A DNA stretch of 64,000 bases from Ulota crispa (taxonomy: Eukaryota > Streptophyta > Bryopsida > Orthotrichales > Orthotrichaceae): NCBI GenBank assembly GCA_963920765.1, contig OY987251.1:7318501-7382500 (forward strand), given 5' to 3'. The notes under the pieces were generated by a model. That model worked only from the letters and a program-made list of their open reading frames with translations, ran no database searches and had not been told where the DNA came from. Positions 7,762-51,367 of this stretch are shown here, piece by piece (position 1 is the stretch's first letter; each line of letters begins with the position of its first letter). Made by a program: the position numbers and the translations under genes.

Positions 7762-7765
7762 TTAA

Positions 7766-8472
7766 CCCCTGAAGGACCAACAGTGACGTCATGGGACAAA
7801 CGGGCTTTTGGGCATGTACTTACAACTAAATTATTTTGTATGATTTTTTGAAACTTTTATGGAAGATGGGGAATTCAAAGATCTACGTGGACATCTAATT
7901 TTTTTCTTCATTCTGACATTTATTAAAGAAGTTAAAAATAAATTTATGGAAAAAGGTTAAAATTGGGGAGCCCAAAAAATGTTTAAAAATTGCATTTAAA
8001 AAAAATAAAAATATGAAATATGTTCTTATATATAGGTGGGGAGCTTTGAATCATTCAATTTTCATTGATGAGATGAAAGTTATGAGAAGTTTTTGTTTGC
8101 AGGTAGGTATGGTTTCTCTCAAAATCACACCTATCCACAAACAAAAACTTCTCATAACTTTCATCTCATCAATGAAAATTGAATAATTCAAAACTCCCCA
8201 CCTATATAAGTCTAAATAACCTATTTCATACTTTTATTTTTTAAATGCAATTTTTAAATATTTTTTTGGGCTCCCCAATTTCAACCTTTTTCCGTAAATT
8301 CATTTTAAACTTCTTCAATAAATGTCAAATGAAGAAAAAATTAGATGCCCACGTAGATCTTGAATTTCCCATCTTCCATAAAAGTTTCAAAAAATCATAC
8401 GAAGCAGTTTAGTTGTAAGTACATGCCCAGAATCCCATTTGTCTCCCAAGGAGACAATTGGTCCTTTAGGGA
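7766..8472. mobile_element. TTAA-family element A: foldback derivative, 707 bp
   Basis: Flanked by TTAA at 7762-7765 and 8473-8476. The termini CCCCTGAAGGACC and GGTCCTTTAGGGA belong to the window-wide TTAA family. Almost the whole element is an inverted repeat with arms of about 340 bp, centred near 8115, where TTTTTGTTTGCAGGTAGG on one side faces CCTATCCACAAACAAAAA on the other. Both outer ends are of the kind that carries a subterminal palindrome, so it looks like two copies of one end joined head to head. No protein is encoded. A transcript would form a long hairpin. Confidence 0.85.
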
Positions 8473-8668
8473 TTAAAGCATCTCTTGCCACCCTTCAAAT
8501 TTCCCCTCCCATAATTTTTGGATGATAAAGCAACCAATTCTAGAGTGTGTCAACCTCTACCTTTACTTTCCCCTCTCAAATAAGCCATATTCAAAGGGGT
8601 CACTAAACTCTTTACAAGCTATATTTTCTCTTTGGATTAGCAAGTTGTCATTATAAATGATATCTTAA

Positions 8669-9590
8669 CCCCTAAAGTACTAAGCTCAACTTTTCATCAA
8701 AATTGCTCCAAAATTGCTTATCCAATTTAAGTACCAAATTTTAGAAAAAAATACTTTTTTGACAAATGTAGCGTAAAATTTGTACTACATTAGTATCAAA
8801 AGATGTGAAAAAAATTCAAGGGTTTTCACCATGTAGAATGTTAGATATTTGAGTTTGAATTGACAAAAGCCATTTTTGTCCCTACAAAAATCTAGGTAGT
8901 TGCGCTTCACAAGGTCATATTTTTATGAGTTTTTTTCAAAATTGGTTATAATTTTTGGGATTTGTTCTTCAAAGCAAGTTGGGTACACACTCAAAAATTT
9001 TCAAATCATCTGGAATTGTAAAACACTTGGAAAAAAATAGTAAGTAAAAAGAAGTAGAGAACGATTCAAAGCACTAAATTGTTAAGAACTTAATTATGGA
9101 AATGAAAATTCCCAATGCCAATGGTTATAATGTTGTAGTAAACAATCTACATCTCTTGGTTTTGTTTTTTTTTTCTGAAATACTGAAAATTGAGTAAGTT
9201 AATGGACTTCAAAGTTTATTTTAAAGTAGAGAATCCATAACCGGCTGCAAACAAAAAATGCTTGTAACTTTCATCTCATTGATTGAAATGGAATGATTCA
9301 AAGCTACCCATGTATACATAAATCAAAAGAACCAATTTCAAAAAAAAAAAAATAGAAAAATAGAATTTTGAAAGAAGTTTTATGGCTGCCCACCAAGCAA
9401 AGAAAACTACATATCATGCAATAACTTTTGAATCATGAAGTCAAAAGTTATGAAGTATGTTGGGCCTTAAAGCTACTCCTTGGACACATCATGTGTGAAA
9501 ATTTTAAAGAAAAAATAAAATAGAAACCCATTTGCACTGAGCTGCCAAAAATTGCTATGTTGCCAAAAAGGGTGTTCAAGACTTTAGGGG
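8669..9590 (-). mobile_element. TTAA-family element B, 922 bp (subfamily 2)
   Basis: Left flank TTAA (8665-8668), right flank TTAC (9591-9594), read as a decayed TTAA. Termini are CCCCTAAAGTACTAAGC and CAAGACTTTAGGGG. It matches the element at 47624-48542 along its length and in size (922 and 919 bp). The internal block with ACTTTCATCTCATTGATTG is shared with the other subfamily but in the opposite orientation to elements C and D, hence the strand given. No ORF of transposase size. Confidence 0.85.
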
Positions 9591-9819
9591 TTACTATGAA
9601 ATGGAATTCCTACAACTTCACATCTTAAATAGCCAAAATAGATAAAGGTGCTTTTTCTTCAAATTGATAAAAAAAAACAATTAAAATTAAATAAATAAAT
9701 CCTTAACATGCTATGTCATATAAATATGTAATATATGGAAAATAAAATGGATTTTTTTTATAGTACGAGAAGTCTAGCACAACTTTGAATACTTCTACTC
9801 AATTCTAAGTGTCTTTAAC

Positions 9820-10132
9820 TGTACTATATAGTGCAATTAGTTTGCTTTAATAATTAGGTTGCCTTACCTTATAATGCTAGCTCATGACTCATTGCTCGGT
9901 CACTTGGAAGTGCATGCAACTCTCTTGATACTAGGATTTTACATCATTTTAGTCTTGGATGCCACTCGATTGTTTTTGGGCAACATTTTTGTTGTTACTA
10001 GGCCCTTATTGTTGTTAAAAAAAATTCATTTTAATAATCATTGTTGAAAATTATTGTAATATAAGTAAGTATTTGTATGATATAAAATGTAAATAAATTA
10101 GTGTGGGGCAACCTATTGTACTATTTAGTGTA
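9820..10132. mobile_element. MITE, TIR (T)ACTAAATAGTGC-type, empty-site copy
   Basis: About 313 bp. Its ends read GTACTATATAGTGCAATTAG and, at the right, CTATTTAGTGTAG, imperfect inverted copies of a terminus seen at 20553, 20777, 22007, 35983 and 63195. The interior (ATTAGGTTGCCTTACC, CTCATGACTCATTG) matches 21738-21780 and 62925-62965. Near its left end GCTTTAATAATTAGG holds one TTAA, exactly where element E has inserted in the copy at 20777-22007. Superfamily not assigned. Confidence 0.75.
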
Positions 10133-10863
10133 GCTTCAATTCTTTGGTCCAAGACTACTCCAACAATCTTCATTCCTTCTACCTCTTCAAAAGTGCAAGG
10201 AATAAAAACTCCTTTCTTCCAAGTATTCGAAAACGCAAGAAACAAGAACTGTTTGACTATACAAAAATTGTTTGAATATTATTGACTCTAACACTATAAA
10301 AGGTATAGTCTTTCGAATTTGTGGGCAAAAAAATAACAAATTGCACAAATTACAGCACGATCTAGCAATAAGTGAACCATAAACTTAGACTTATATAATT
10401 CATCTCTTGGTAAGGATTGGATGACATTGCTAGAATTAGATGAAATAATATAATTTATGTATGAACAAGTAATATGTTTTTAATCCAAATTATATATAAT
10501 TGTACAAACACTAACATGCTAATTTACCTCATCATTTAATTTCTTCACATGTGGCTTCTCAAAACAACTTAAATTCTCCATATGTGACTTTGCCATCTTA
10601 ACCACAACACTTTATCTCTTCTTTTGTAGCTTTGCAACAACATTTTTCTATTTTTGTATATGGTTTTGCCTTGCTTTGGTTCTCCTTACTTACTTAGGAC
10701 GTTTTTTGTTTGGTCAAGATGAGGACATAGTGGAAGTGGGCCCAAGCGTAATGAGGGAAAATTGTTTCCTATCCAATTTCAAAGCCAAACAAGAAGTTCA
10801 TGGCTTTGGCATAGGAGCATTCCTCCATGCACTCACAAAGGAAACATGTATAGCCAAAAGAGC
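10133..10863. other. AT-rich DNA, nothing recognised
   Basis: No gene or clear repeat boundary seen. The small ORF at 10676-10894 runs into the adjacent inverted-repeat element and resembles nothing I know. Confidence 0.5.
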
Positions 10864-11171
10864 TAGCATTAGAAAAAATCTAGGCCCTCAATAAGGCTTT
10901 GAGTTCCCAAGCATGGGAACCTTGGGTCCATTACACCAAATTCTGCACATGCGCAGTCTGACGTGGCACCATTTGTGCCACATCAGACCGTATTATTTTA
11001 TTAATTAAAAAAATCAAAAAATCAAAAAAGTTTCAAAATTTTTTCTAAGATTTTTTTTTCTATTTATATTTTTTAATTAATTTTTTTCTAGTGACTAGCA
11101 GGGTTGGTTCCTCACATTAGGAACAAAAATTTTAAGGGCCTTATTGAGGGCTCCAATTTTTTCTAATGCTA
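10864..11171. mobile_element. Inverted-repeat MITE, 308 bp
   Basis: The ends form inverted repeats of about 34 bp: TAGCATTAGAAAAAAT then GGCCCTCAATAAGGC on the left, GCCTTATTGAGGGC then ATTTTTTCTAATGCTA on the right. The middle has a hairpin built from GTCTGACGTGGCAC and GTGCCACATCAGAC. I could not identify a target-site duplication or superfamily. Confidence 0.7.
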
Positions 11172-11208
11172 CTATTGGTCTTCTTGGCAAGTGCAATTGA
11201 TTCTTTAA

Positions 11209-12075
11209 CCCCTAAAGGACCATTGTCCTTACATGGACAAATGGAATTTTGGGTAGGTACCTACAGCCTCAATTTTTGTCTTGATTTTTTGAAACTTTTT
11301 TTGAAGATAGAAAGACACATTAGCTTTTGGGGAATATAACTTTTATTCCATTGGATGCCAAGGTGCAAAAGTTGTGCCCAAATAAGCAAAAATTTGGGGA
11401 GTCCAGGTAGCAATTTTTTTAACAAAAACTCAAAATATCTTTTAAATTTTGTTTCCCATAGATTATGTCTTTGTCTACATCTAAAGCTTTGATTCTTTCC
11501 ATTTGGACAAGTTATGAGAAAGTTATGGACAATCTTGGTTTTTGGGCAATTCAAGCATCTCCTTGAAAAAATAACTTAAAAAAATCATTTTTGAATGCAA
11601 GTTTAACATTTTTCCAAATTTGTTTTTTGGAAAGGGTGACGTTTGCTTTCTAGAACAATCTCACTGTTGGGATTATTGCGCTTCAATTCCATTGCATGAT
11701 TATTAACAATTTAAGTTTTTGTTCAATTTCATACCTTCTTCTTCCTAATGTTTTTCTTAAGAATGAAAATTAAGTAATTTTTGTTTTGGTTTTTTTCCCA
11801 AGATTCCCAACTCAACAGTGCAAAAAGTTCAAAGTCAAATAATCTAGCAATGCAAGGTGCAAAAAATCTTGTTTTTTACACTTTGAATGCAATTATCTTC
11901 CAATCTATGGAGTCAAAGTTCTTGAGTTTTGTATGACACATTCTCATACTAGTCTAGTACAAGATCCTATGGTTAAATATGAAAAAGACCAATTTTCAAA
12001 CTTTTTGACTCTTTGCCATAGAAGTGGCAGTTTTGAGTATCTTTTGATAAAATAAAGACCATGGTCCTTTAGGCG
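11209..12075 (+). mobile_element. TTAA-family element C, 867 bp
   Basis: TTAA at 11205-11208 and 12076-12079; termini CCCCTAAAGGACCATTGTCC and CATGGTCCTTTAGGCG. The left subterminal palindrome TTGTCC-TTACAT-GGACAA is intact. The interior has diverged from D, E and I but keeps recognisable blocks such as the 'do not move' TTATGAGAAAGTTATGGA stretch. No coding capacity. Confidence 0.85.
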
Positions 12076-12079
12076 TTAA

Positions 12080-13278
12080 CAGTTCTTTTTACAGTTTTTC
12101 CATCCATCATGCGATCAACCTCCTTGACCAGGCGCTCCCATGTCCCTGGCAGCTCTAGAACCGGTTACACATTGAAGCTCCAAACTTCTAGGAAATCCAT
12201 TACAAGAATTGCACACATAATTAAACCCTCCTTTTCTTGTTTCCAAGGCTCTTACTTGTGCCTCAACTAAAACCTTTAGCCATAACAAATATCAATATCA
12301 TTATAATTATTGTTGTTATTTTTGTCATTTTTATGCACTTTGAAATAAGAAACCAAAAGAAGGGGGTGGGGACTAGACAAGGCGAAGGGTTCACTTTGCA
12401 TTCCAATGATGTGTTCTAGGCGGACCCTCACATGGGCCACAAGGGGATTATTCATGGGTTCCAATAAAAGTATTTGGTGGGTGAAAGGGAATGAATGGCA
12501 GTGGATGTTGGCCTCCTTTTTGTCGTCGAAGTGGTCATGGGTCATGAGTGGGAGCCCACTTTAGAAGGGGAAAAAAGGCCACTTCCTCAGGGGCCCCCAC
12601 TTCCCCTAAATTCTTTTTTATCAGGATTCAGGACATGGCCATGTATGGTGACCCTCTGAATGGTTGTGGGGCTCTGCGCAATAAAAAGACGTACTTTGTA
12701 TCTTTTGCTTTTGAGGGTGGGGGACTGGGGGGTTTGTATTCTAGCGACCTCCGCTATATGATTACATTAAATGCAATTATAGCAGCTTTTGGGTTATTAG
12801 TTGGGTCGTTTTAATGAGAAAGCTAAAAGTTGCTTTGCGGAATTGGATTTATTTGCGGACATGTGAATCAGGCAATTTACTCTTTTTGCTCAGTCTTTCT
12901 ATTCTTGGGAACTCTTAATAGAACTTTTTAATGGAGCTTCGTCCTTTCCAACCCAACTATGGAAATTTTTCTTTTCTTTCATTGGTTGAGCCTAGGAATT
13001 TATTTTTGTTTTCCTATTGGTCGAGAGACAAGTACCCTAACTACCCTTGAACGTTATGCAAGTAAGAGAATGAAAATGGGTGGAAATCATCCATGTGGAC
13101 ACAACCATCAATAGAAGTACCTATTTCTTGGTTGCTTCATCCTACTTATTGGCGGACCTAGTGTTTCCATTAGAGGGACTTGGTAATTTTCATCCATTTT
13201 TCACCCAATTGTTGTATTTTAGGTAAGGTAATCAGAAGCAATCCCAAATTTAGTTAAATTCAAAAAAAATCTTTTACC
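12080..13278. other. Intergenic DNA, no recognised gene
   Basis: Part of this stretch (12340-12830) is less AT-rich and has an 88-codon ORF at 12548-12814 with a hydrophobic C-terminus, but no domain is visible and there is no gene-like context. I treat it as non-coding. Confidence 0.5.
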
Positions 13279-13282
13279 TTAA

Positions 13283-14215
13283 CCCCTAAAGGACTGTTGT
13301 CCCTTCGGGGGACAGGTGCGAGCTCGGGCATGTACCTTTGGATAAGCTACTTTGTGTGATTTTCTGAAACTTTTATTGAAGGTGGGGAATTCAAAGATCT
13401 ACACGGGCATCTAATTTTTTCCTCATTCCGACAATTATTGAAGAAGTTATGCATGAAAATCTGAAAAGCAAGGGAGGATTGCCCGCCCAAGCAGCCCAAA
13501 AACTTCTTTAAATTTAAAAAAAAAAAAATTAAAATTAAAAATCAAAATTGGTTCTTTAGATTTATTTATAGGTGAGAAGCTTTGAATCATTCAATTTCAA
13601 TCAATGACATGAAAGTTATGAGGAGTTTTTGTTTGTGGGCAATTATGGAATCTCTACTCTAAAATAAACTTTGAAGTCCTTTATTTTACTCAATTTTTAT
13701 TATTTTGGAAAATTAAGCAAAACCAAAGGATGTAGATTGTTTATCACAACATTACAACTGTTGGGATTTGCATTTTTCATTTTAATAATTAAATTCTTAA
13801 CAATTTAGTGATTTGACTCATTGTCTACTTCTTTTTACTTATTGATTTTTCCTATGTGTTGAGTAGTTCCAATTGATTTGAAAATTCTCCCACACATAGC
13901 TAACTTGATCTCCTACATGGGAAAAATAAAGCGCAAAGTTGCGTAGAGCAATTATTTTCATGTAAGAATGGTCAAAGGCTTCTGAAATTTTGCGGCAGCA
14001 TGAAAAAAAACCTTTCTTTTCACTTTAGATGTAAATATCTCACTCATGTTTTTCCAAAATGACTTGATTTTTTTTCCACAAGTACCTAATCCAGTCTAGT
14101 GCAAGATCTTACGGTTGGATTTCCCAAATTTTCAAAAAAAATTACCTTCTTACTAACCCCAAAAGTGGCAATTTTGAGTGATTTTCACTGAAAAAATGGC
14201 TCAGTCCTTTAGGGG
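13283..14215 (+). mobile_element. TTAA-family element D, 933 bp (reference copy)
   Basis: TTAA at 13279-13282 and 14216-14219. The TIR is about 14 bp (CCCCTAAAGGACTG on both ends) and the two ends then differ. The left end has the palindrome TTGTCCC-TTCG-GGGGACA; the right end reads, inward, a GTGAAAATCACTCAAAATTG block. Short TIRs with asymmetric subterminal DNA fit piggyBac-type organisation. It aligns with E (inverted) and with I once its nested insertion is removed. No transposase ORF. Confidence 0.88.
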
Positions 14216-14575
14216 TTAATAGCTATAGGAAACGTGAACTCTATTCTTGTTTGACCTTTTGGTGAGAAGGAGGTAAGGCGCTCCTATGTTGTTGTCCTTA
14301 CCATGAAGCCTAAAGCTCTAGAGCAATAATTGTATTTTCAAGATTCATCTCCTGCTTGTACCATCGTTTGGGGAGAAATTTTGGCTTCACTAGCTAAAAT
14401 TTGGCGTTTCCATTTTCACCCGGTTTTGTCAGTGGACTGTATAATTTTTTTTAAATATTTTTATTATAAAATTTGATCAATTCTTAGCAAGTAGATTTAA
14501 ATCCAATCAACTTGTATGCAATTTGAACCAGTTGACAATAAACTAAATGTCAATCTCCCCAAAACATTGATTTTA

Positions 14576-15889
14576 GCCCCTAAAATTCTTTTGTGTTTAG
14601 AGGCCCAAAACTGCTTCAAAATACTAGTCCCCAAACCAAGGTCAAAATTTTCATTGAAACTTACTTTTTAACAAATCCAACTGTAGGATCCTTTGGTTGA
14701 CTTGCACAAGTACATTGTCCCAAAATTTCAAAATGAATATCCCCACCAATTGCAAGATCAATGTGCCTAAATTTCAAAATGTAGGCTTTTCTAGTCCTTC
14801 TAGAAGGTGAAGTTTTGTTTTTCAAACATTTTAAAGAAAAACACGTATGTTGTATTTCTTGTGCAATTTTTGCAATATGTTAGAGAATGGGTTGAAAGCA
14901 TATATATAAGAAAATTGATCAAAAAAAATTTTGGATTCATGTTTACAAAAATTGTAAAGTGAAAGGTATTGATGCATGAAAGATATAACTAATATGCTAA
15001 TAAGTTTTGGACAAATTTGAAAATTGTTAATCCCAATTGTGAGAATGCTCTAACAGACAATTAGTAACTTTTATTTTCATTTTAATTTGAAAATTTTCAA
15101 AATTGAGAGTAAAAGGTAACTTTATATGTTTTTCTATGGGGATTGATATGTCTACCACACCCTTTCAAGTATTGTACCACACCCCAGGGTAAATTTTAGA
15201 TTCCTACCATCAAATATTTGAATTTGAGAATTTGGAATTCAGTTTTGGACTTAGAGACCGTGATTTAGTTTAGAACCATAAAAAAAGTTGTAATTGAACA
15301 ACACCCAATGAAAAAGCTTACTTCAGGGAAAAAATATTACTTTTACTTTTGTTTGCAAAAAAGATAAGCTTTTTCATTGGGTGTTGTTCAGTTAGAACCT
15401 TTTTATGATTCTAGACTAAATCATAGTCTCTAAATCCAAATCTGAATTCCAAATTCTCAAATTCACCTATTTGATGGTAGAAATCTAAAACTTATCCCAG
15501 GGGTGTGGTACAATACTTGAAAGGGTGTGGTAGGCATATCAATCCCCTTTTTCTACCCTCTTCTACCTTCATTGCCCGCAATATAAAACTCCTTTTAACT
15601 CTTACCTCATTATTTGGAATTGAGTGGTTCATTTTTTTTAAGTAGGTATCAATCTATAAAGTTCTATATATATATATATATATATGCTGTCCGGTTTGAA
15701 ATTGAAATTGAAAAAATCTTATAACTTTTGCATTCTTTATCGGAATGACATGAAATAAAGCTTCCCATGTAGATTATGATGAGTAGCAACCATCCTAAAA
15801 AATTCATGAAAAATTTCCTAATTATGAAGTCAATAGAGCCTGCCCAAGTTCTCATAAAGCCCAAAGTGGGCTCCTTGGGCCTTTAGGGG
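14576..15889 (-). mobile_element. TTAA-family element K (diverged), interrupted by a foldback MITE
   Basis: The right end CCTTTAGGGG followed by TTAA (15890-15893) is clear. The left end is a degenerate TTTTAGCCCCTAAAAT near 14573-14588. Removing the MITE at 15138-15547 and its 8-bp duplication leaves about 896 bp, the normal family size. The shared AATCCAACTGTAGGATC block supports membership. The left boundary is uncertain. A TA run sits at about 15665-15685. Confidence 0.6.
15138..15547. mobile_element. Foldback MITE 1, 410 bp, hAT-like 8-bp TSD
   Basis: Near-complete palindrome: GGGGATTGATATG at the left and CATATCAATCCCC at the right, centred near 15340 with arms of about 180 bp. The flanks show TTTTTCTA on both sides, offset by one base at the left, an 8-bp duplication as made by hAT elements. 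It is a relative of the element at 19194-19599. Non-coding. Confidence 0.8.
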
Positions 15890-15893
15890 TTAA

Positions 15894-16560
15894 TCTGTCT
15901 TCAATGGAAAATATAATAACATCCATTACTTCAAGCGAGATTTAGTTGTTGGATAGAACATTTGGAGGCACAAAATGGACAACACATGTTTGTCCATTCT
16001 TACTTTTTAGGGCAATTTTACTATTTTTGACCTAAAAAAAGGAATAGTAAAATTACTATTTTTCATTTTTTACTATATGATATGGTTTTCAATCCCCAAT
16101 TTGACTTCATGTTAGCAACAATGAGTGTCACAAGCATGTACAAAGTAAGTTTTTTTTATAATTTTTTGAAACCAACTATGAATATTGAACAAACATGAGG
16201 TCAATCAAGCACTTTGGGTGGATGGACAAGTGGACGGGCAGTTCAATGTAACAACCATTAACATCTCTCATTGAGGGTGAGATGGCATCTCTAAAGAAGA
16301 AGGTGGGGACAATGAACGGGGAGAGCTGAAAAACAATAGAAAGTCAGCTGAATGAAATGTGAAAAATCCAATTAAAATTCACAGATACCGGCAAAAATCT
16401 GACTAAATTCTTGAAAGTTTTCTAATCATAGTGTGAGTATATAGGCAATACCTTGTGTATGCAATAAATAAACCAGTTGAAAATGAGAAATGTAGGATAT
16501 TTGCCGAAGAAGCTCAAAATCTCCTCGCACACTGGTCGGGGATGTCTATGAAGCACATGC
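15894..16560 (+). repeat. Dispersed repeat of unknown type, copy 1
   Basis: The stretch matches 61990-62345 (shared: GCAACAATGAGTGT, ATATGGTTTT-AATCC, GGATGGACAAGT). Its later parts match 55860-55960 (CAATAGAAAGTCA) and 57065-57120 (TTGCCGAAGAAG, TCAAAATCTCC). The blocks appear in different order elsewhere, so this is a rearranged fragment of a larger unknown repeat. Confidence 0.6.
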
Positions 16561-18085: not shown

Positions 18086-18087
18086 TA

Positions 18088-18661: not shown

Positions 18662-18663
18662 TA

Positions 18664-19185: not shown

Positions 19186-19193
19186 TTTTTTAA

Positions 19194-19599: not shown

Positions 19600-19607
19600 T
19601 TTTTTAA

Positions 19608-20776: not shown

Positions 20777-22007
20777 TCACCAAATAGAGCATTTAGGTTG
20801 TTTTAACCCCTAAAGGATCACGTCTTGTTTTTTTGTGAAAATCACAAAAAACTGCCACTTCTAGGAGGTTTAGTAAAAAGGGATTTTATGTTTGTTTTTG
20901 GGAAATCCAACTGTAGGACCATGCCCTAGACTAGAAGAGGTACTTGTGGGAAAAAAATCAGCTCATTCCACATGGAGAGGAGTGAGATATTTACATCTAA
21001 AGTGAAAAAAAAAAAAAATTCCATGCTGCCCAAAAATTTTAGAAGCCTTTGACCACTCTTATAACAAAAAATCTGCTCTACCCAAAGTTGCACTTTTTTT
21101 TCCATGTAGGAGATCAACTTAGGTATGTGTGGGAGAATTTTCAAATCAATTGGAACTATACAACACATAGGAAAAATCAGTAAGTAAAAAGAAGTAGACA
21201 ATGAGTCAAATCACTAAATTATTAAGAATTTAATTATTGAAATGAAAAATGCAAATCCTAACGGTCAAAATGTTGTGATAAACAATCTACTTCCTTTGGT
21301 TTAATTTTTTTTTCCAAAATAATGAAAATTGAGTAAAATAAAGGACTTCAAAGTTTATTTTAGAGTAGAGATTCCATAACTTCCTGCAAACAAAAACTCC
21401 TCATAACTTTCATGTCATTGATTGAAAGTGAATGCTTCAAAGCTTCTCACCTATAAAAAAGTCTAAAGAACCAATTTAAAATTTTATTTAAAAAAATGTA
21501 ATTTACAAAGAAGTTTTTGGGCTGCCTGGGCGGGCAGTCCTCCCCAAATTTTCATAAATTCATGCAAAACTTCTTCATTAAATGTCAAAATGAAGAAAAA
21601 ATTAGATGCCCACATAAAGCTTTGAATTCCCCACCTTCCACAAAAGTTTCAAAAAATCACACAAAGTAATTTAGTCATAGGTACATGCCTGAAGTCCAAC
21701 TTGTCCCCCGAAGGGACAACGGTCCTTTACGGGTTAACAATTAGGTTGCCTTACCATGAAAAGTTACCTCATGACTCATTAGCCATTTGGAGGTGCCTAA
21801 AATTGTTTAGATACTAAGATTACACATGATTTGCCACATGGACTTAGTTAATTTGTCATCCTCCAACTATGTTGTTATTACCAAAACCATTAAAAATTTC
21901 TTATTACAATAATTATTGCTGAAAATCACTGTAACAGCAGTAAGTATTTAAATAATGTGAAATGTCAAGAAATTAGGATAGGGCAGCCTAAATGCACTAT
22001 TTGGTGT
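20777..22007. mobile_element. MITE of the ACTAAATAGTGC family split by TTAA element E
   Basis: The left end CACCAAATAGAGCATTTAGG and the right end CCTAAATGCACTATTTGGTG bound the element. Its body resumes after element E with ATTAGGTTGCCTTACC, colinear with the uninterrupted copy at 9820-10132. Removing E and one TTAA leaves about 300 bp, the normal size. Confidence 0.75.
20807..21733 (-). mobile_element. TTAA-family element E, 927 bp, with documented empty site
   Basis: TTAA at 20803-20806 and 21734-21737. Termini CCCCTAAAGGATC and GGTCCTTTACGGG. Colinear with D in reverse: the palindromic end (GTCCCCCGAAGGGAC) is at the right. It sits inside another MITE, so the target can be compared with the relative at 9845-9860, where the site has a single TTAA. 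No ORF longer than 91 codons, none recognisable. Confidence 0.9.
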
Positions 22008-22852: not shown

Positions 22853-24111
22853 TACCACATTTTGATCTTTGCAGTATCACATCTCCAGTCATTGTGATAT
22901 CATATTACTAAAATCACAATAATTTTTGTGATATTACATCCTCATCTATGTAATATCACATCTCCACTCTTTGTGATATTACTAAAAATGAGAAAATAGT
23001 TGTTCTAATGGTGAATGAGTAGCATAGCAAGCACCTTTGAGGATTTATTGAAATTTTTACTTGTGCATGCTATTTAACATATGAAAATCTTGATAAAATT
23101 CTTATGGTGAATGCGTGGCTTAGCAAGCCCCAACTGCTAGTATGTAATCAAAAATCTTAAATGCTATTGATAGTTGGGTTGGATTGATGGTTGCGGGGGA
23201 GGAATGCTATATTGTGAGCGGAGATTCGTGAACCGTGAGTTGTAAGCCTAGATTTTTTTATCAAAATACTCAATTTCACTTGTATTTGTGTACATAGGGC
23301 TCTACAATTGTGCATTTAAAACTTTTATCTCTTGAAAAATTTGCTATTTAAAAGCTTTGTCGTTGATTTTGAGCTCAATATTCATTCTTGTTCACCAAAT
23401 CTTGGCTTCTTGCTCACATGCTCATCATTATATGCTCACAAAATAATGTCATCTAATGATTGGGTTGGATTGATGGTTGGGTTGGGTCCCATAGAAAGGT
23501 TAGGGGTAAGTCATACTATGTTGCATGTCTCAACTATACACGTTATAGTTTACTCTATGACAATAGTACTAAGTAATAGAGGGGTGAAATTAAATTAAAT
23601 ATAATAAATGTTTAATATGAATATTTTATGCAAAGTTATTGTTGAAATGAATTATTTAAATACAAAAAAGATTTTTTTTTTTTTTTTTTTGCTTGAACCT
23701 TAAATGCAAGAAAACATTTTGATTTCAAGGAGGTGGTAATGCCATGATTGAATGAATGATGGACCACTTGAAAAAAATAAAAAATAGCACTAAATTATCA
23801 AATTTCATGCTCACAAGAGGTGTCTCGATAGCAATTCCATATATATATATATATATCATATATATGTACAAGTAATCTATACTTGTCGTACCAACAAGAC
23901 AATGCATGAGTTTAAAAAGATGGACCTCCAAACAAATTGCCCTTCTTTTTCTACCTTTTTTTCTCCCTTATTTTTGAATTCCAAAATTTGAGAAACATAG
24001 AGACATTCAATGCTATAGAGAACATCAAACTCACAATGCTTTGAAATATTCAATTTGAATTTTTTTAATATCTTTTTATAAATTGAGCTACATTTCACAT
24101 CCCATGCTCCG
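22853..24111. other. AT-rich DNA with a partial repeat end
   Basis: A segment at about 23726-23838 (AAGGAGGTGGTAATGCC ... GAGGTGTCTCGATAGCAATT) matches the right end of the element at 36105-37225. A poly-T tract lies at about 23673-23690 and a TA run at 23839-23864. A direct repeat of GGTGAATG-AGCAAGC occurs near 23011 and 23105. No gene seen. Confidence 0.5.
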
Positions 24112-24417
24112 CCATCCTTGTGACTACCCCCATCCTTGTGACTACCCCCATCCTTGTGACTACCCCCATCCTTGTGACTACCCCCATCCTTGTGACTACC
24201 CCCATCCTTGTGACTACCCCCATCCTTGTGACTACCCCCATCCTTGTGACTACCCCCATCCTTGTGACTACCCCCATCTTTGTGACTACCCCCATCCTTG
24301 TGACTACCCCCATCCTTGTGACTACCCCCATCCTTGTGACTACCCCTATCCCTATGACTCCCTCCATTCTTGGGACTCCCCCCATCCTTGTGACTCCCCC
24401 CATCCCCGTGCTCCCCC
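24112..24417 (+). repeat. 18-bp minisatellite, about 17 units
   Basis: Unit CCATCCTTGTGACTACCC. The first 13 or so units are nearly identical and the last few drift. Because 18 is a multiple of three, open frames run through it on both strands (TTPILV and GSHKDG hexapeptides). These are not genes. Degenerate units continue after the hairpin insertion, at 24540-24800 and 25320-25385. Confidence 0.92.
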
Positions 24418-24535
24418 ACTACAAAAAAACATGGTTGAAGCTACAAAAAAATTGACAAAAATTGTGACCTAATCTACAGTATATTGTAGATTAGGTCACA
24501 ATTTTGGTCAATTTTTTTGTAGATTTGACCATGGT
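24418..24535. mobile_element. Hairpin MITE with CACTA-like ends inside the minisatellite
   Basis: Begins CACTACAAAAAAACATGG and ends CCATGGTTTCCTTGTG. The arms (ATTGTGACCTAATCTAC and its inverse) pair around 24483. Minisatellite-like DNA resumes on the far side. A clean target duplication is not visible, so the superfamily is tentative. Confidence 0.6.
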
Positions 24536-37509: not shown

Positions 37510-38275
37510 ACTTGTAAAGACCCATTGTTCTTTGAAAATGCAAACTGAGTTTTGGGCAAGGTCCTTCAATCTCAGATTTTGACATTATTTTTTTGGGTAG
37601 AAGAATACATTAGCTTTCTATGAATATTGTTTGGATTTCAATCAATGCCCAAGAACAAAAGTTATGTCATCCCATGCACAATTTTCACTCCGTTGGGCAA
37701 CAAAATAAATCTTCAAACACTTGAGATAATGAAATTTTGAAATTTTGTCTCTTCATAATTTTGACTAAAATAAGATTATGTTCCTAATTTTGTTTCTTCA
37801 TAAATAATCTATATAATTATGTTATTGTCTACATGGAAAGTTTTGATTCATTCCATCTGGATTAGTAATGTGAATGTTATGGAGCTATCTTGTTTTCTAG
37901 GCAATCATAGCATCTTCTTGAGAAAATAATGTATTAGATTTGTTTTCTCTACTGTCAATTTTTTATGATAAAAAAAATATACACTCAACTTTGTAGAGCA
38001 AAAGAATCAAATTGAAAAGGCTCAAATTCAAATATTAAAGTCATTTAAAGTTCAAAAAAGTTTGTTTTTTTCAAAATGAACACACATATTTTGCAATTTG
38101 CGCATCCAAAGCTTTATGTTGCTTCCATGCATTCTCATACTAGTCTAGTGCAAGATCTTACAATTAGATGTGTCATAAAAAATATTAAATTTTATTCTTT
38201 TTGCAATAGAAATAGCAATTTTGAATATGTACACTTGATAAAAAAAAAGGGCCATTGTCCTTCTAAAGTTGAAGG
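37510..38275 (+). mobile_element. TTAA-family element F, strongly diverged
   Basis: The left end TTAACTTGTAAAGACCCATT and the right end GGGCCATTGTCCTTCTAAAG are decayed forms of the family termini. The interior matches element C (TTTTGGGCAAGGTCC, TCATACTAGTCTAGTGCAAG, AGTTTTGAATATxTxCACTTGATAAA). Boundaries approximate. Confidence 0.6.
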
Positions 38276-41340: not shown

Positions 41341-41540
41341 ACTCTGGCCCCACATCGACGTATGTGCAGTACTACGATCCATGGGTAGTATACGGTGCAG
41401 TAAACCATGCAGCATACGGTGCAGTGTACGATGCAGTAAGCCGAGTCAGTTGGAGCTGCAGCTTCAGTAAAGTAGTCCGCAGAATTCCAGGGAAAAGAAG
41501 AGGAACCATGCGGAACAGGAGGCGCCCACTGTTCCTGCGG

Positions 41541-43103: not shown

Positions 43104-43107
43104 TTAA

Positions 43108-43714
43108 CCTCTAAAGGACCAAGGACCCTCTTGGAGGACAAATGGGATTTCAGGCATGTACCTATGGCTAAACTACTTTGCGTGATTTTCTGAAACTTTT
43201 ATTGAAGGTGAGGAATTCAAAGATCTACGTGGGAATGTAATTTGTTCTTCATTTTGATATTTATTGAAGAAGCTAAAAATGAATTTATGGAAAAAAGGGG
43301 ACTCCAGGCAGCCCAAAAACTTCTTTGAAAATTGCAATTTTTTCAAATAAAAATCTGAAAGAGGTTCTTTACCCGTAAACTAAAACTTCTCATAACTTTC
43401 ATCTCATCTATCAAAATTGAATGATTCAAAGCTCCCCATGTCTATATAAGTCTAAAGAACCTCTTTCAGATTTTTATTTGAAAAAATTGCAATTTTCAAA
43501 GAAGTTTTTGGGCTGCCTGGAGTCCCCTTTTTTCCATAAATTCATTTTTAGCTTCTTCAATAAATGTCAGAATGAAGAACAAATTACATTCCCACGTAGA
43601 TCTTTGAATTCCTCACCTTCAATAAAAGTTTTAGAAAATCACGCAAAGTAGTTTAGCCATAGGTACATGCCCAAAATCCTATTTGTCCCCCGAAGGGACA
43701 AGGTCCTTTAGGGG
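43108..43714. mobile_element. TTAA-family element G: foldback derivative, 607 bp
   Basis: TTAA at 43104-43107 and 43715-43718. Termini CCTCTAAAGGACC and GGTCCTTTAGGGG. Nearly a full palindrome centred near 43410, with the palindrome-bearing end at both sides (AGGACAAATGGGATTT at the left, TTTGTCCCCCGAAGGGACAA at the right). Same architecture as element A but different spacer, so an independent or re-formed foldback. Confidence 0.87.
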
Positions 43715-43751
43715 TTAAGACCTGCAGTCCCACTGTAGCTTGACAGTGTCA

Positions 43752-44272
43752 GGGCATCATCAATAGAGCACAGGCATTTGAGCAAGCCCTGGGACGGCAA
43801 AAACACTTCTATTTTTTGACTAGTGTATAATTAGAAAATGAGATTACTATCATTGGAAGCGTATACAAAAACTCGTCAAACAAATAAAATGACATATGGT
43901 ATTGGAAATTGGACTAACAAACTAGAGCCCATTGAAAAAATATCTAAAGGACAAACAACACAACAAACCATGCCTAACAAAGAAAAATTAGATAATGGGA
44001 CTCCAAATTTTCAGAATTTGGAGTGCCATTATCTAATTTTTCTTTGTTAGGCATGGTTTGTTGTGTTGTTTGTCCTTTAGATATTTTTTCAATGGGCTCT
44101 AGTTTGTTAGTCCAATTTCCAATACCATATGTCATTTTATTTGTTTGACAAGTTTTTGTATATGCTTCCAATGATAGTAATCTCATTTTCTAATTATACA
44201 TTAGTAAAAAAATAGCAGTGTTTTTGCCATCCCAAGGCCTGCTCAAATGCCCATGCCCTATTGATGATGCTC
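43752..44272. mobile_element. PIF/Harbinger-like foldback MITE, 521 bp, TSD TCA
   Basis: The left end GGGCATCATCAATAG and the right end CTATTGATGATGCTC, with TCA at 43749-43751 and 44273-44275. The arms pair over nearly the whole length around 44012 with few mismatches. Near-identical 70-codon frames therefore appear on both strands (43838-44050 and 43974-44186), which is a symmetry artefact. The 3-bp duplication and GRGCATC start suggest PIF/Harbinger. Confidence 0.8.
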
Positions 44273-44419
44273 TCAGTGCCTATTTACACTTGGAGTCGAG
44301 GTTGTTTTGGAGCGCACTTAGCATCTAGTAATTTTTTTCTAAATATTTATTTGTGAATTACTTTTCATTTTCCATTCTCAACCAGTGTTTCTGGCCAAGG
44401 TGAAGGCTTGGTTGGCCTA

Positions 44420-45760
44420 GTTCAGACCAAGACGTCCAGCGTCACAGGACAAAAACCTCTCTCTAGTGTTTTATCCGGTGGGTTATGGAGGGAGAATTGC
44501 CATGTCATCATGGCTTTGTCCATCCGATGGATGCATTCACACCGGGCACTAGATGTTCGGTGGAGGATCACTTTTGTTCTTTCTATTCTTAGTTAACTTG
44601 ATTTTGTCTTTACCTCACATGGAGTGAGAGGGAGTGTTTTGTCCAAAGGACAAGATTTGACCCACCTCCTAAGGTGACCTCAAATCTTGGCCACCGCAAG
44701 TGAGCTCCTTTTCAATTTTGGAGGGAAAAGGTGATGACATGGACTCATCCTCTACTGGACGTCCCTCTGGTGTGAATGCCATACTAGACAAAACCTTGGG
44801 ATGGACCAAAGATTTTGCTTACGGTTTTGTCCACAGGTTGTGGATGTCCTAGTCTAAAACGGCCCTGACAGGACGTCTAGAGCTGGTGGACAAAAGCTCT
44901 TGTAGGTGATTCATCATGTTGACTTTGGAGGGAAATTTGTCATGTCATCATGGGTTTGTTTGTCTTGTGAATGCTTTCATACTGGGCACTAGACGTCTTG
45001 TGGAGGAGCTTCTATTTTTAGTTGACTTGATTTTGTCTGTATCTTACATGAAGTGAGAGGGAGTGTTTTGTCCAAAGGACAAGATTTGAGGTCACCTCCC
45101 AAAGTGACCTCAAATCTTATCCACCACAAGTGAGCTCTCCAATTTTGGAGGGAAAAGGTGATGACATGGACTCATCCTCCACTAGACTTCCCATTGGTGT
45201 GAATGCCATACTAGACAAAACCCTAGGATTGACCAATGAGATTACTTACGGCTTTGTCCAGTGGTTGTGGACATCTTGGTCTAAACCAAGCCCAACTCGG
45301 TTTAGACCTAAAGTGGACGTCCTAGTGGACAAATTTTTTTGTCCAATGTCTTGTCCACCTTCATTTGGTGGGAAATTGCCAAGGTTTCACACTAAGAACA
45401 AGACATCTAATGGAGTTATAGTTCTAATCCAACTTGACATGATTTCGTCTTTACCTCACATGAAGTGAGAGGGAGTGTTTTGTCTCGTGGACAAGACTTG
45501 GGGTCACTTCCCAAGGTGACTCCAAATCTTGTCCCCTACAAGTGTACTCCTCTTCAATTTTGGAGGGAGCGTGTGATGACATTGCGTTAACACCTCATGG
45601 CCATCCGCTTCATTGCAAAAGCTCCACTAGACAAAACCCTCCCATTGGCCAACAAGATGCTCCTAAATTTTGTCCACTTCCCAGTTTGAACCTACCCCTC
45701 AAAGTTCGTTTCCATTGTAGGGGTCCAAATGTAGACCTCTAGCCTCTAGCTTTACAAAAG
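44420..45760 (+). repeat. Tandem repeat of about 430 bp, three diverged units
   Basis: AGTGAGAGGGAGTGTTTTGT recurs at 44623, 45052 and 45464, so the spacing is 429 and 412 bp. Units also share GATGACATGGACTCATCC, CATACTAGACAAAACC and an internal GAGGTCACC/GGTGACCTC palindrome. The ORFs inside are not conserved between units. It could be a local duplication or a small satellite patch. Confidence 0.8.
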
Positions 45761-47619
45761 TCAAAAAACATTCATGGACCTTTTGAACCCTAGACTAGAG
45801 CTTGCTTTCAAAGTTGTATATCTCATTAGGATTTCATAGTTTTTTCTTTCTTTTACCCAAGAACAACCTCTAGATGGGCCTCCAATTTTGGTTACCAATG
45901 AAAATTGGCCCTCATTGCCTCTTGTCTAGATGAATGGGGCCTTGGGGCTTTGTTTATTGCATATCAAAGTTTTTGGGACATAGTGGAAAAGCTCTACAAT
46001 TTTACAAACAATGGTGAAAGTACTAATTTACCCCTATTTTGAGGTTGTTTAATTGTATCCTTCTCCATAATTCTAGACTAAATTTGGGTTTTTAAAACCA
46101 AAAGTAAAATCAGAATATGTAAATTCAATCTCCTAATGGTAGATTTCCAAAATCTTGCAATTATTGAAATGTGAAAAATTGGAGCTTTTCACTTTGGCTC
46201 CACAAACTTCGATTTCACTAATTCTATCTCCTTGTTCTAGATTTGAATCTTAATCTTGAAAATTATATTTTTTGAAGTTGAGCATGACTAGTGAAAAGAA
46301 GCTAATCACATCTAATTTCAATGCCAATTTGAAGTTTAGGAAAATCCTCATGTTTTAGATGTTATATTGCAATTGGAACTTAAGGCCTATTGCTAACAGT
46401 GCTAAGGGCTAATGCTTTTCCAATTGTAATACAACATAGAAATATGACTCCACAATGTTTCAAACTAAAATTTATACCTATGGTGAAAGTTTCAAAAATT
46501 CGGTATGAATGTTTTTCTTTACTTTCATTGAAAACTCATAATTATTTCAAGTTTTCACCATTAAATCTGAAAATTTTATGAAGTGTGTGCATCGGCGTCA
46601 AATGATCAGTTGGTGCAATTTCGCATTATTTCGCCCCCTTAAAAATAAAAATAAAAGCTTGGCCCCTTATTGAGCACATGTACATTGGGGTGCATTATTT
46701 GTACAACTGCCTATTTGAACCATTCAGTTTTTTTTGTAAAACATGAAGTATAGTTGGGATTTTTTTGTCAACAAAATTATCATTGCATCCTTACGCAATC
46801 TTAAACAAGCGTATCGAATTTTAGTTCCAAAAAACCAAAATTTCATTTTTGGTGAATTATTTTGTGAGGAATTCATGGTTTTATATGATGATTAATTGAA
46901 AAAGATTGGGGATAAATTTTTAAGATTTAATTCCATGGATATGTAGGAAACATCCATACGCACATTGTCCATGTTAAAAAAAAAAACCCCTTAGGTAACA
47001 AAAATTTGAGCTACAGAAGATTCAATGAAACTTGTGATAGGTCTAAATTTTGTATAATATATGTTTTTATTTTTTAACTAGTTATTCATCAAGTAAACAA
47101 AATATTATGTGTAGAGATGCCCGAAAGGGATAGCATACTTTGAGCCCCCTTAGTTGAATTTTATTTGTTCTACTCATTCAATTGTTTAAAGCATTCATAA
47201 GTACACGATGTTAATTAGGTTCAACAATGCAAAATTTCAGATACAATTGAGATGTCTAACTTATTTCACGTAATGAGCTGGCAATATAAGGTGGTCAAAG
47301 AAACTATACACTATTCAAGCTTTAGAGATTTCTCGCATGTTCAGATTTTTTTCTCACAATTTCAAATAGTGAAATGATGTAACCCCATAATGCCCATATC
47401 TCCTACAAGGAAGATTTTTATTTTAAGAAAATTACAAAACCTTGCAAAAATATATAATTCAAGCTTAGCCCCAATCCACAATCTTGAAGTCTTGTTCATA
47501 AACAAGGCAAGATAGATAGGAAGATTGACTTCCCAAATGCTACAATATTCAACAAAGAAAAATATTGTCCTAACTCCATGTTTTAACAATAAACTATCAA
47601 ATTTGTTTAATTTAGTTAT
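45761..47619. other. AT-rich DNA with one dispersed repeat segment
   Basis: 45960-46205 pairs with 41155-41350. Elsewhere I see neither a gene nor a bounded repeat. Confidence 0.45.
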
Positions 47620-47623
47620 GTAA

Positions 47624-48542
47624 CCCCTAAAGTCCTAAGCAAATTTTTCACCAAAACTGCTCCAAAATTGCCATTTCTGGTACAAGTACCAAATTTGAGA
47701 AAAATGACACTTTTCGACATATGTAGCTGTACGATCTTGTACTACACTATTATCAAAAGATGCAAAAGAAAATTCAGAAATTTTTGCCATGTAGATTGTA
47801 AGATGTTTGGGTTTGAATTAAAAATGCCATTATTTGTCCTTGCAAAAATCCAAGCACTTGCACTTTACAAGGTCATATATGTAAGAATTTTTTTCCAAAA
47901 TGGTTATAACTCTTTAGATTTGTTCTTCAAGGCAAGTTGAATACACACTTGAAAATTTTCAAATCATTTGGAATAGTACAAAACATGGGAAAAAGAGTAA
48001 ATAAAAAAAAGTAGAGAATGATTCAAACCACTAAATTGTGAAGAACTTAATTATGGACATGAAAAATTCCAATCCCAATGGTTATAATGTTGTAATAAAC
48101 AATCTACATCCTCAAGTTTTTTTTTTTTTCCTAATTATTGAAAATTGAGTAAACTAAGGACTTAGAACTTAGAAGTTCTTTTTTAGAATAGAAAATTCAT
48201 AATTGCCTGCAAGCATTATCTCCTCATAACTTTCATCTCATTGATAAAATGGAATAATTCTAAGCTTCCCACTTATATATAAATCTAAAAATCACTTAAA
48301 ATATAATAAGTTAATTTAATTTAAAAAAAGAATTCCATCTCCTTGACAAGTAAAGAAAATTGCATATCATGCAATAACTTTTGAACCATGAAGTCAAAAG
48401 TAATGAAAATTGTTGTATCTTGAAGCTACTCTTTGGACGCATCATGTGTGAAAATTCCAAAGAAAAAAAAAAGAAAAATCCTTTGGTATTGGTTGCTCAA
48501 AATTGCTATGTTGCCAATAAAGCATGTTTAGGGCTTTAGGGG
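47624..48542 (-). mobile_element. TTAA-family element H, 919 bp (subfamily 2)
   Basis: The left flank is GTAA (47620-47623, one change from TTAA) and the right flank TTAA (48543-48546). Termini CCCCTAAAGTCCTAAGC and GGGCTTTAGGGG. Colinear with element B throughout, including ACATTATTAxTATCAAAAGATG-type and ACTTTTGAAxCATGAAGTC blocks. No transposase. Confidence 0.85.
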
Positions 48543-48546
48543 TTAA

Positions 48547-50017
48547 ACAAAGCGTTAGTTGCTAAAAAAATCATTACAAATGGCTAATGTTGGCTTCCAA
48601 AAAATGCTAAACACAAAAACTAAAAATTAAAAGACCATTTACACATTTTTTGCCTTGTGGATGAAGATTATCAAGATTATTTTAAAAACATCCCCTATGG
48701 CTACATATATATTTGCCATTGCAATTCTAGCAAAATTTGTGAGGTTGTGTCTTGCCATCATTGCAAATCACGCAATTTCCTCTCAAGTTAGAGAGTAAGG
48801 GGTAACACTATCCATTGGAGCTTCTTGGTTTCTTACAAGAAATTTCCTCTCCAATCATGTAAAAGAATTTTTCATAATTTTAGGCAAAATTGGAGATGCA
48901 TCATTTCTTTGCGGCTCTTTACCATTCTTACACTCATGAACATACATGATAAACATGTTAAATATTGTCATATCTAGTAGGAAAAAAACCATCTACCAAA
49001 TTTATTGTCAAATCTCTTGCCAAGACCCTCGTCAAGACCTTCACTTAGACCGCCACCAGGATTGCTATTGAAGCTAATTTTGGGCAGTTTTTTTTGTTTG
49101 CTTTGTGTTGCCCAAACAAATTGCATCATTTTAAGCATCATAACTTTTTAATCATGCATCCAATTGAAGGTTTTTTTTCACAAAAAGTTGTTTATTGTAT
49201 GCACATTGTTTCCAAATTTCAAAAACATGTGCCTAAAATTTACTTTCATAGGAACCTACCTAGATTTTCAGTTGTCTGTTCAACAAAAAATTGTCCTTTA
49301 GGAGTTAAATGTATTTTACTTCCTTACATTTCCTCCACGTGGAAAAATAAAATCTAGAAAATAGGACATGTCAAAAGACGTCATGAGTATTTAGTTTTGG
49401 AATACACAATTTTGTGAGGAATACATGAAATCTTAAAAAATTGACTTCGCAAAAAAATTCCACAAACGTCCAAGTAAACTTTTTATTATTACTATGTATT
49501 TACATTTTCAAAGACTTTGACTTAATTAGGTAGTCAGCTATCTTGTTTGGTACTGAGAGTTCCAACAACTAATGCAATATAGGCAATTCCAAATGTATCA
49601 AATGCCATGTCAGATATAGCTGCCCAAAATGTAGCATGTTCAAGAAAACACATGTAAGGTAGTTTGCTTGAATTGGACCCTTGTCAGATAAAGCCTCTCA
49701 TAGGGTGCCAAGAAGGATCGTGTAGTGGTCCTCAAATGGATCTCTTTAAGTCATAAAAGAAAAGGTGTATTTTGATACAAGAGCCAATCAAACTCTATGG
49801 TTTCATCTTATCTTTTCATAAGTTGCAAGTAAACAATTTGTGGGAGACCTAGAGTCACAAGTCTATTGCAAAAACTTTGAAAATTCATCAACAATTCAAT
49901 AATGCTTCAAAAAATATGAAAAGAATTGGGTTACATTTGACATCTATTTCTCCTTATCTTGTAATTAGACAAATTATCTTATTGGCTTGAAAAGCCCATG
50001 AAAAATCAAATAAGCTC
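48547..50017. other. AT-rich DNA with a solo TTAA-family end
   Basis: AATTGTCCTTTAGGAGTTAA at about 49290-49309 looks like one end of a TTAA element, but no partner end could be matched. No gene seen. Confidence 0.45.
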
Positions 50018-50021
50018 TTAA

Positions 50022-51363
50022 CCCCTAAAGGACCAACTGTCCCCTTGGGGGACATATGTACCTTGGGCATGTACCTCTGACTAAACCAATTTTTGTAAAA
50101 TTTTGAAATTTTTGAGGTTGGTGGGGAATTCTAAGATGTAAGTGCACAACTAATTTTTTCTTCAGTTCAACATTTATTGAAGAAGTTATGCATGAATTTC
50201 CAAAAAATGGGGGAGGGCAAGCAATCCGGGTAGCCTCATTTTTTTTTTAAAATTGCATTTTTTAACCCCTAGAAGCCCACTTGTCCCCTCAGGTGACAAA
50301 ATGGATTTTGGGCAACTCACTACAAGTGGACATTTCATCTTTTATCTTTGAAAATTTCACACACGATGTATCCAAGGTATAGCTTTAAGGTCCAACAATT
50401 TTCATAACTTTTTATTGCATGGTTCAAAAGTTATTGCATGATATGTTTTTTTTTTTTTGAACTCCGGGCAGCATGGGCAGCTCAAAAAACTTCTTTATAA
50501 ATTATTATTTTTTGATTTTTTTTTTTTTTTGAAATTGGTTCTTCAAACTTATGTGTACTTGGGAAGCTTTGAACCATTCAATTTTGATTGATGATATGAA
50601 AGTTATGAGACATTTTAGTTTGTGGGTAGGTATGGCTCATTTTGCCAAAAAAACAGTGCTTGGGTCTTTAGGGGTTAAAAATGAAAATCTGAAATTGGTT
50701 CTTGAGATTTTTAGATATGTGGGAATCTTTGAATCATTCAATTTTGATTGATGAGTGAGAAGTTTTAGTTTGCGGGTAGGTATGGGACTCCCAAACTTCC
50801 ATTCCGTTTGCCCCTTGTAAAATTTGGTGCTTAAATTATTTTTTTGATTTTTTTTTTCCAAGTTGTAGTACACTAAGATTCCTTGCTTTTAACCATTTGG
50901 ATCAAAGTAACTCATATTTCTCAAATTTACCTGAATCCTCCAATCTTGCCTAGTATATATACAGAATTCATGGCCTTACGGCATTGCAAGATTTTACATA
51001 GTATGATCCACACCTCCAATTCATTTGAAAATTCTCCCACATTTACCTAACTTGGTTTTTTACATGGGAAAAATAAACCTCAATTTGGCGTAGAGCAATT
51101 TTTTTGATATTGGAGCAATCAAAGGCTTCTGAATTTTTTGGGCAGCAACAAAAAAAAAAAAAAAATTCACTTCAAATGTCCATATCTTACTCCTCTACAT
51201 CTAGAATGAGCTAATTTTTTTTTTCCACAAGTAACTCCCATAGTCTAAGGCAAGATCCTACGATTGAGTTTTCAAAAAAAAAAATTCCTACCTTTGTACT
51301 CATTCCCCAAAAGTGATAATTTTCAATGATTTTCACAGAAAAATGGGCTTGGTCCTTTAGGGG
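50022..51363 (+). mobile_element. TTAA-family element I, with nested element J
   Basis: TTAA at 50018-50021 and 51364-51367. Termini CCCCTAAAGGACCAACTG and TTGGTCCTTTAGGGG. The palindrome CTGTCCCC-TTG-GGGGACA is intact at the left. Total 1342 bp; subtracting J (409 bp) and one TTAA leaves 929 bp, the same as D (933) and E (927), with colinear sequence. Confidence 0.88.
50266..50674 (+). mobile_element. TTAA-family element J, 409 bp, nested in I
   Basis: TTAA at 50262-50265 and 50675-50678. Termini CCCCTAGAAGCCCAC and GGGTCTTTAGGGG. The left end has CTTGTCCCCTCAGGTGACAA, an imperfect form of the family palindrome. A short deletion form of another subfamily. Confidence 0.85.
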
Positions 51364-51367
51364 TTAA

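Follow-up and report, generated by a model that had tools for sequence, protein, structure and literature searches.

Abundant TTAA-flanked miniature elements in the bryophyte Ulota crispa are probably derived from piggyBac transposons

Introduction

The piggyBac superfamily of transposable elements is best known from animals; here we report that in a land plant, Ulota crispa, short non-autonomous elements that very probably belong to it occupy about a tenth of the sequence sampled from one chromosome. The analysis centers on a 64,000-nucleotide stretch of contig OY987251.1 (C10:7318501-7382500 of the 274.8-Mb assembly; hereafter the window), in which an initial annotation had described eleven copies, named A to K, of an element family with common ends and TTAA flanks. 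Contigs of the assembly are designated by C-numbers, and L-numbers denote DNA stretches that were compared with the window.

Members of the piggyBac superfamily (PDB 6x67; piggyBat, PDB 9c0f) produce 4-bp TTAA duplications, have CCC(C)T ends, and encode a DDE_Tnp_1_7 transposase with three acidic positions and a C-terminal zinc-finger stretch. The elements described here are alike in the duplication, the ends and the transposase with its acidic positions, and a putative zinc-finger stretch matches zf-Tnp_2 below the Pfam cut-off. A study of coral elements (PMC2872659) characterizes piggyBac by inverted ends 12-19 bp long that carry a terminal CC[C/T]T motif. The inverted ends in U. crispa fall within that length range, and their motif is CCCCT, not CCCT, the fourth base being C. 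The same study describes coral CMITEs, which are TTAA-flanked miniature inverted-repeat transposable elements (MITEs) sharing ends with the piggyBac-like element AmiPB1, and reports an internal region conserved between CMITE families that is paralleled here by a 94-bp core of element D. Unlike the CMITEs, for which little likeness beyond the ends is reported, many of the MITEs in U. crispa have a 3' part that is clearly homologous to piggyBac. Further departures from known piggyBac elements are the plant host, the presence of upstream coding stretches without a Pfam match, and size, since one copy with nested MITEs spans 8.0 kb and another 5.0 kb, compared with 2.1-3.5 kb for beetle piggyBacs (PMC12732532).

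Among plants, the repeat table of a C-fern report (PMC6890710) lists 1,230 'PiggyBac' copies totaling 122 kb. Another candidate report, PMC10619864, was set aside, as its accessible text mentions only 'expression piggybacking'. Among the matches listed in open-licence PubMed Central, none described piggyBac MITEs from a bryophyte. The mechanism considered here is known; the land-plant host and the scale are unusual.

Results

An abundant element family with common ends

When one mismatch is allowed, the sequence CCCCTAAAGG is found at 21 places in the window, against a mean of 3.3 and a maximum of 10 in 100 dinucleotide shuffles. Genome-wide, TTAACCCCTAAAGG is found 15,411 times (7,719 forward and 7,692 reverse), and its reversed control once forward and never in reverse. 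In a sample of C1 comprising 20 systematic 10-kb pieces, elements with TTAA on both sides total 23,126 of 200,000 bp, a sum in which a nested 716-bp element is counted twice, so that their share is about 11%. When 77 pairs of terminal inverted repeats (TIRs) were chosen blind to their flanks from these pieces, from L009-L011 and from the window, TTAA was present on both sides of 43, on one side of 11 and on neither side of 23. The consensus over 86 ends is CCCCTAAAGG(A/C)CCAAG, with inverted ends of approximately 13-16 bp that start with CCCC, and element lengths cluster at about 920-935 bp. TTAA flanks are also evident at elements with CCCCTAAATGCC, CCCCTAAGCGCC and CCCCAAAATGAC ends. The best identity between sampled MITEs is 89.9%, nested and overlapping rows excluded.

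Ten of the eleven copies originally described in the window (A-E and G-K) indeed carry CCCCTAAAGG-type ends at TTAA or near-TTAA sites, and the ends are absent from the eleventh, F. The flanks were likewise as described, including the exceptions TTAC for B and GTAA for H, except that the TTAG to the left of K had been omitted and that K, whose left end is CCCCTAAAATTC, starts at 14577 rather than 14576. In the flanks inspected, the bases beyond the 4-mer differ between left and right; the annotation had likewise described no longer duplication. The estimate that the family covers about 14% of the window also holds (9,303 bp, or 14.5%, for the eleven copies, F included).

A piggyBac transposase between the family ends

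The annotation had interpreted the copies as non-autonomous derivatives of a piggyBac-type transposon, and had proposed searching the same genome for a DDE_Tnp_1_7 transposase flanked by the family ends. Such a copy exists on C7. Its transposase (C7:11819342-11820496) consists of two open pieces that match PF13843 (DDE_Tnp_1_7, piggyBac) at 1e-14 and 1.8e-44, respectively, and three aspartates align to the acidic positions of the piggyBac transposase 6x67, which we take to be residues 268/346/447. A putative zinc-finger stretch matches zf-Tnp_2 with an E value of 0.0011 and 19.8 bits, below the Pfam cut-off of 24, and the upstream coding stretches of this copy have no Pfam match.

Over 199 bp, the 3' tail of the C7 copy shares 72% identity with internal sequence of a MITE in L011, with the homology starting inside the MITE, and a right end was therefore predicted approximately 435 bp past the stretch read. 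The end, TTAA followed by CCCCTAAAGGCCCAAG, was found there within the next 810 bp, which lengthens the match with the MITE to 601 bp (74% identity). At C7:11814408 lies a left end, TTAA followed by CCCCTAAAAGCCCACTTGTCCC. The complete unit of 8,025 bp thus places the transposase between CCCCTAAAAGCCC and CCCCTAAAGGCCC ends, and also contains a nested MITE.

The comparison of occupied and empty loci, likewise proposed in the annotation, yielded paralogous empty sites with a single 4-mer for this copy. The flanks of the unit are contiguous in all four paralogues that span the site fully (75-77% identical, with small gaps elsewhere), and a single TTAA is present in L029, L031 and L011. A further stretch, L019, matches the flanks in two separate parts only. 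Its position corresponding to the C7 insertion point is interrupted by about 880 bp (L019:1725-2606), which may represent a separate insertion at that target.

Given that MITEs are dense in the C1 sample and that one is nested in the C7 unit, a MITE could have come to lie beside a piggyBac transposase gene by chance, with CCCCTAAAGG ends that have nothing to do with that gene. We consider this very unlikely, for four reasons. First, the contiguous flanks in four paralogues are those of the whole 8.0-kb unit. Second, MITE homology begins internally in three transposase tails. Third, the sequence from transposase to right end is free of left ends in the C7 copy, as are the parts that were read of L047 and L048 (described below). 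Fourth, the right end of the C7 copy was foretold from tail homology before it was found.

The identity of the transposase also bears on other elements that target TTAA. Sola3 elements share this target. For Kolobok, PMC9587614 gives the same TTAA duplication with termini of the form RR...YY, whereas the termini here are CCCC...GGGG. Kolobok also has a different transposase. The transposase between the family ends matches PF13843 and aligns to piggyBac structures, and although the genome was not searched with Kolobok or Sola models, there is very little chance that the copies belong to either group.

PF13843 has at least 120 matches in the genome, some of which are pieces of one copy (116 of 528 candidates scored), with all listed matches above the curated cut-off, and none of 14 control genomes had any match to it. 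When the proteins of C7 and of three further stretches (L032, L033 and L034) were compared with solved structures, only piggyBac (6x67) and piggyBat (9c0f) were matched at E values of 0.001 or below. A search of the genome with the C7 protein returned at least 130 matches (129 of 556 candidates scored). Among the matches listed, the twelve closest full-length relatives share 53-59% amino acid identity with it and all carry stops, and two matches of 50% identity, at C2:36765280 and C2:36779667, are without stops. In-frame TAG stops appear to be commoner than TAA in the piggyBac matches, by impression rather than by count; such an excess would fit decay through CHG methylation (CAG to TAG).

MITEs that retain piggyBac ends

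Two stretches, L047 (C5:24512591) and L048 (C3:27055742), hold the 3' tails of two close relatives of the C7 protein, and both have the family kind of right end (TTAA followed by CCCCTAAAAGACC and by CCCCTAAAGGACC, respectively). In each case 21 matches reach the end, 17 of them over at least 350 bp, with identities of 71-79% over 358-553 bp for L047 and 72-88% over 354-645 bp for L048. Window elements D, E and I are among the MITEs so matched. The closest pair, L048 and L010:5867-6783 at 88%, is about level with the best identity between MITEs.

We also assigned element ends to classes by scoring positions 14-65, outside the TIR, against the two C7 ends, with the 99th percentile of shuffles as the threshold. 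Among 46 elements (B, H and K in addition to the 43 flanked by TTAA left and right), 20 combine a left-type with a right-type end, five have two left-type ends, one has two right-type ends, seven have one assigned end and 13 have none. Because 20 of the 46 have left and right ends like those of the C7 copy, and because many keep 350-645 bp of a piggyBac 3' end, many of the MITEs are, judging by their sequences, internal-deletion derivatives of piggyBac copies.

The 94-bp core of D (window 13562-13655) recurs in 30 of these 46 elements, which differ in structure and include D itself, in some over only 26-70 bp. It was absent from the 17 piggyBac stretches read.

By analogy with the superfamily, a transposase of the C7 clade would bind the CCCCTAAAGG ends together with asymmetric subterminal sequence, excise the element and insert it into a new TTAA, and would thereby mobilize MITEs in trans. 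Foldback forms, in which both ends are left ends, would have arisen through rearrangement and stayed mobile.

The target-site duplication spans 4 bp

Empty paralogues are available for several MITEs. For element E, L023:4405-4536 is 88% identical to the joined flanks and aligns across the junction gap-free, with a single TTAA, and other paralogues hold TTAA (window 9828-9949 and L010:4087-4159) or TTAC (L021). Among the matches listed, five empty paralogues of L011:7826-8752 (window 54807-54639, L011, L030, L012 and L015) have one TTAA each, as do paralogues in L013, L025 and L021 for the nested element L013:5908-6623. These sites alone cannot separate a 4-bp from a TA duplication, because a TA model with ACCCC ends predicts the same sites.

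What distinguishes the two models are sites that depart from TTAA. Genome-wide, 654 ends vary at the outermost base of the 4-mer and 595 at the base adjacent to the end, against 15,411 canonical ends, with the two middle bases left uncounted. For C1 the lists of variant ends are complete (92 and 84 ends) and contain 14 pairs spaced 100-1600 bp apart, where chance gives a mean of 0.26 and a maximum of three in 1,000 trials. In nine of these 14 pairs, one 4-mer other than TTAA is repeated at left and right (TTAG in four pairs, CTAA in three, GTAA in one and TTAT in one). The duplication is therefore 4 bp rather than TA, since altered 4-mers are repeated in these nine pairs and both outer positions of the 4-mer are similarly constrained.

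These data bear directly on the familiar plant MITEs. Stowaway and Tourist elements are likewise abundant, short and bounded by inverted ends, and differ in having TA or TWA duplications and mariner or Harbinger transposases. A Tc1/mariner (Stowaway-like) origin, with TA duplications and ends that read ACCCC, was suggested by B and H and predicts that departures from TTAA affect the outermost base only, as is the case for B, H, L017:3686, L011:7530 and window 54393. However, K (TTAG) and L031:8572 (TTTA) do not fit, variants are about equally frequent at the outermost and the end-adjacent base, and targets other than TTAA show 4-bp duplications in nine of 14 pairs. We rejected the TA model on the variant counts and on these duplications, and regard its chance of being correct as minute. 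PIF/Harbinger (Tourist-like) MITEs are common in plants and make 3-bp TWA duplications, but this origin is just as improbable, given that TTAA stands on both flanks, where a 3-bp direct repeat would require asymmetric ends, that 4-bp duplications occur at non-TTAA targets, and that the family ends enclose a piggyBac transposase; the exclusion of a 3-bp duplication in the annotation is thereby upheld. The annotation had named two outcomes as contrary to a piggyBac origin, and neither was seen: empty sites that show TA alone or lack a duplication, and a copy that encodes a transposase from a different superfamily.

Observations that weigh against a piggyBac origin

Several findings count against the conclusions drawn above. 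Many paralogous sites hold a single 4-mer other than TTAA (for example CCAA, CAAA, TTGA or TCAA): L027 has TCAA at the C7 empty site, many other paralogues of the nested L013:5908-6623 have a single TTGA, TCAA or TAGA, and those of L009:2023-2969 and L013:2835-3467 have CCAA, CAAA or TAAA. Five of the 14 variant pairs on C1 are without a direct duplicate, two of these sharing one end. The 13 of 46 elements without an assigned end resemble neither C7 end beyond the TIR. Six of eight other piggyBac 3' tails have no TTAACCC within the 1.4 kb read (the C7 copy was among these six, and its end appeared on reading 810 bp further), and two of the eight end in other CCCT...GCC sequences, one in CCCTTCACCGCC and one in CCCTATACTGCC. 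The stretches read of L047 and L048 begin 440-450 bp past the matched protein and include right ends only, the left ends lying outside. Finally, the C7 copy itself carries two in-frame stops, and no intact source transposase of its clade was identified among the copies listed.

Weighing these points with the transposase between the family ends, the shared right ends and the 4-bp duplications, we conclude that the copies are almost certainly non-autonomous elements (MITEs) of the piggyBac superfamily.

Discussion

These results define the ends of a natural piggyBac in a plant. They are relevant to horizontal transfer and to the question of how small a number of transposase genes can sustain MITEs in the tens of thousands. 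For the use of piggyBac as a plant genome tool, a resident transposase could in principle act on vector ends. A broader proposal is that piggyBac is a dominant and long-resident land-plant lineage, comprising several diverged clades that differ in their ends, MITEs numbering in the tens of thousands and one or more host genes derived from it. We offer this tentatively, as a possibility that we currently judge somewhat less probable than its opposite.

Other piggyBac families and candidate host genes

The 5.0-kb piggyBac copy at L034:466-5484 has ends of TTAA followed by CCCCTCATCGCC and by CCCTTCATTGCC, and is a second, different piggyBac family. The tail that ends in CCCTTCACCGCC belongs to L042 (C2:15048720), whose flank matches other repeats from about the TTAA. 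Near the L034 copy, at L034:224-294, is a 71-bp element (CCCCTAAATGC...GCATTTAGGGG) that is followed on the right by TTAA and is a very short representative of the CCCCTAAATG family. In L045, a nested element at about 1495-2090 has TTCCCTCTGTCCCA and TGGGACAGAGGGAG ends, and presumably resembles Stowaway MITEs.

Two long open frames may be of interest as genes. The stop-free 365-amino-acid transposase frame at L033:3310-4407 (C2:34594948) has all three aspartates, and no exact TTAACCC occurs in the 8 kb read around it; it may be a host gene, and is the best candidate for one derived from piggyBac. The stop-free 436-amino-acid frame at L032:3347-4657 (C4:3591922) has apparently lost the third aspartate, which is N by eye. 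Two right-facing TTAACCC ends, and no left-facing one, are present in L032, at 6330 (TTAA followed by CCCTTTAGCGACC; TTAACCCTTTAGCGACC) and at 632 (TTAACCCTTTAAAGACC). Because the former lies 1.8 kb downstream of the frame, this locus may be only a decayed element.

Upstream coding stretches at L032:1424-1774, L033:5811-6545 and L034:1192-1560 share, by eye, the motif R(Y/F)L(F/C)(Y/C)(R/K)(H/Q)IAK(L/I)LG(W/F). None of the three has a Pfam match, and the motif perhaps marks an N-terminal domain of plant piggyBacs.

Features of the window

Coordinates of the individual elements are listed in Table 1. Element F is 70% identical to element C over 255 bp and is a weak family member at best. Over its leftmost 55 bp, TTAA included, J shares 87% identity with the left end of the C7 copy. 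The empty site that J implies in I falls in low-complexity sequence and is supportive only. The window also holds a transposase relic, which matches pieces of the C7 protein at 4e-7 (zinc finger) and 0.008 (catalytic region) in a search over all DNA stretches compared, and at 7e-9 and 1.4e-4, respectively, within a 6.1-kb stretch. A family end that faces the relic may be the 5' end of its element.

Table 1. Family elements and transposase remains in the window
Feature	Position	Strand	Length (bp)	Flanks	Remarks
A	7766-8472		707	TTAA/TTAA	Foldback; two left-type ends
B	8669-9590		922	TTAA/TTAC	B/H subtype; no end assigned to C7 left or right class
C	11209-12075	+	867	TTAA/TTAA	Left-type and right-type end
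D	13283-14215	+	933	TTAA/TTAA	Last ~350 bp 77.4% / 75.5% identical to L047 / L048 3' ends
K	14577-15889		1313	TTAG/TTAA	Left end CCCCTAAAATTC; palindromic repeat inside at 15138-15547
E	20807-21733	-	927	TTAA/TTAA	Window 20803-21154 77.7% / 75.6% identical to L047 / L048 3' ends
F	37510-38275			CTTA/TCAA	Diverged; ends unrecognizable (ACTTGTAAAG / CCTTCAACTT)
G	43108-43714		607	TTAA/TTAA	Foldback; two left-type ends
H	47624-48542		919	GTAA/TTAA	B/H subtype
piggyBac transposase relic	48661-48986	-			Catalytic-region end 48986-48909, then co-linear C-terminal zinc-finger region 48804-48661; stops present
End CTCCTAAAGG + TTAA	49295-49304	-			Faces relic; putative 5' end of its element
I	50022-51363	+	1342	TTAA/TTAA	Broken by J; last ~550 bp ~74.5% identical to L047/L048 3' ends
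J	50266-50674		409	TTAA/TTAA	Nested in I

Elsewhere in the window, positions 4936-5530 (C10:7323436-7324030) hold the only AUX/IAA matches in the genome (two matches; nine of nine candidates scored), which lie downstream of the start of a long open reading frame at 3653-4765. A single AUX/IAA locus would suit a bryophyte, as liverworts have one Aux/IAA gene. A minus-strand open reading frame at 23877-24419 consists mostly of a GGSHKD tandem repeat.

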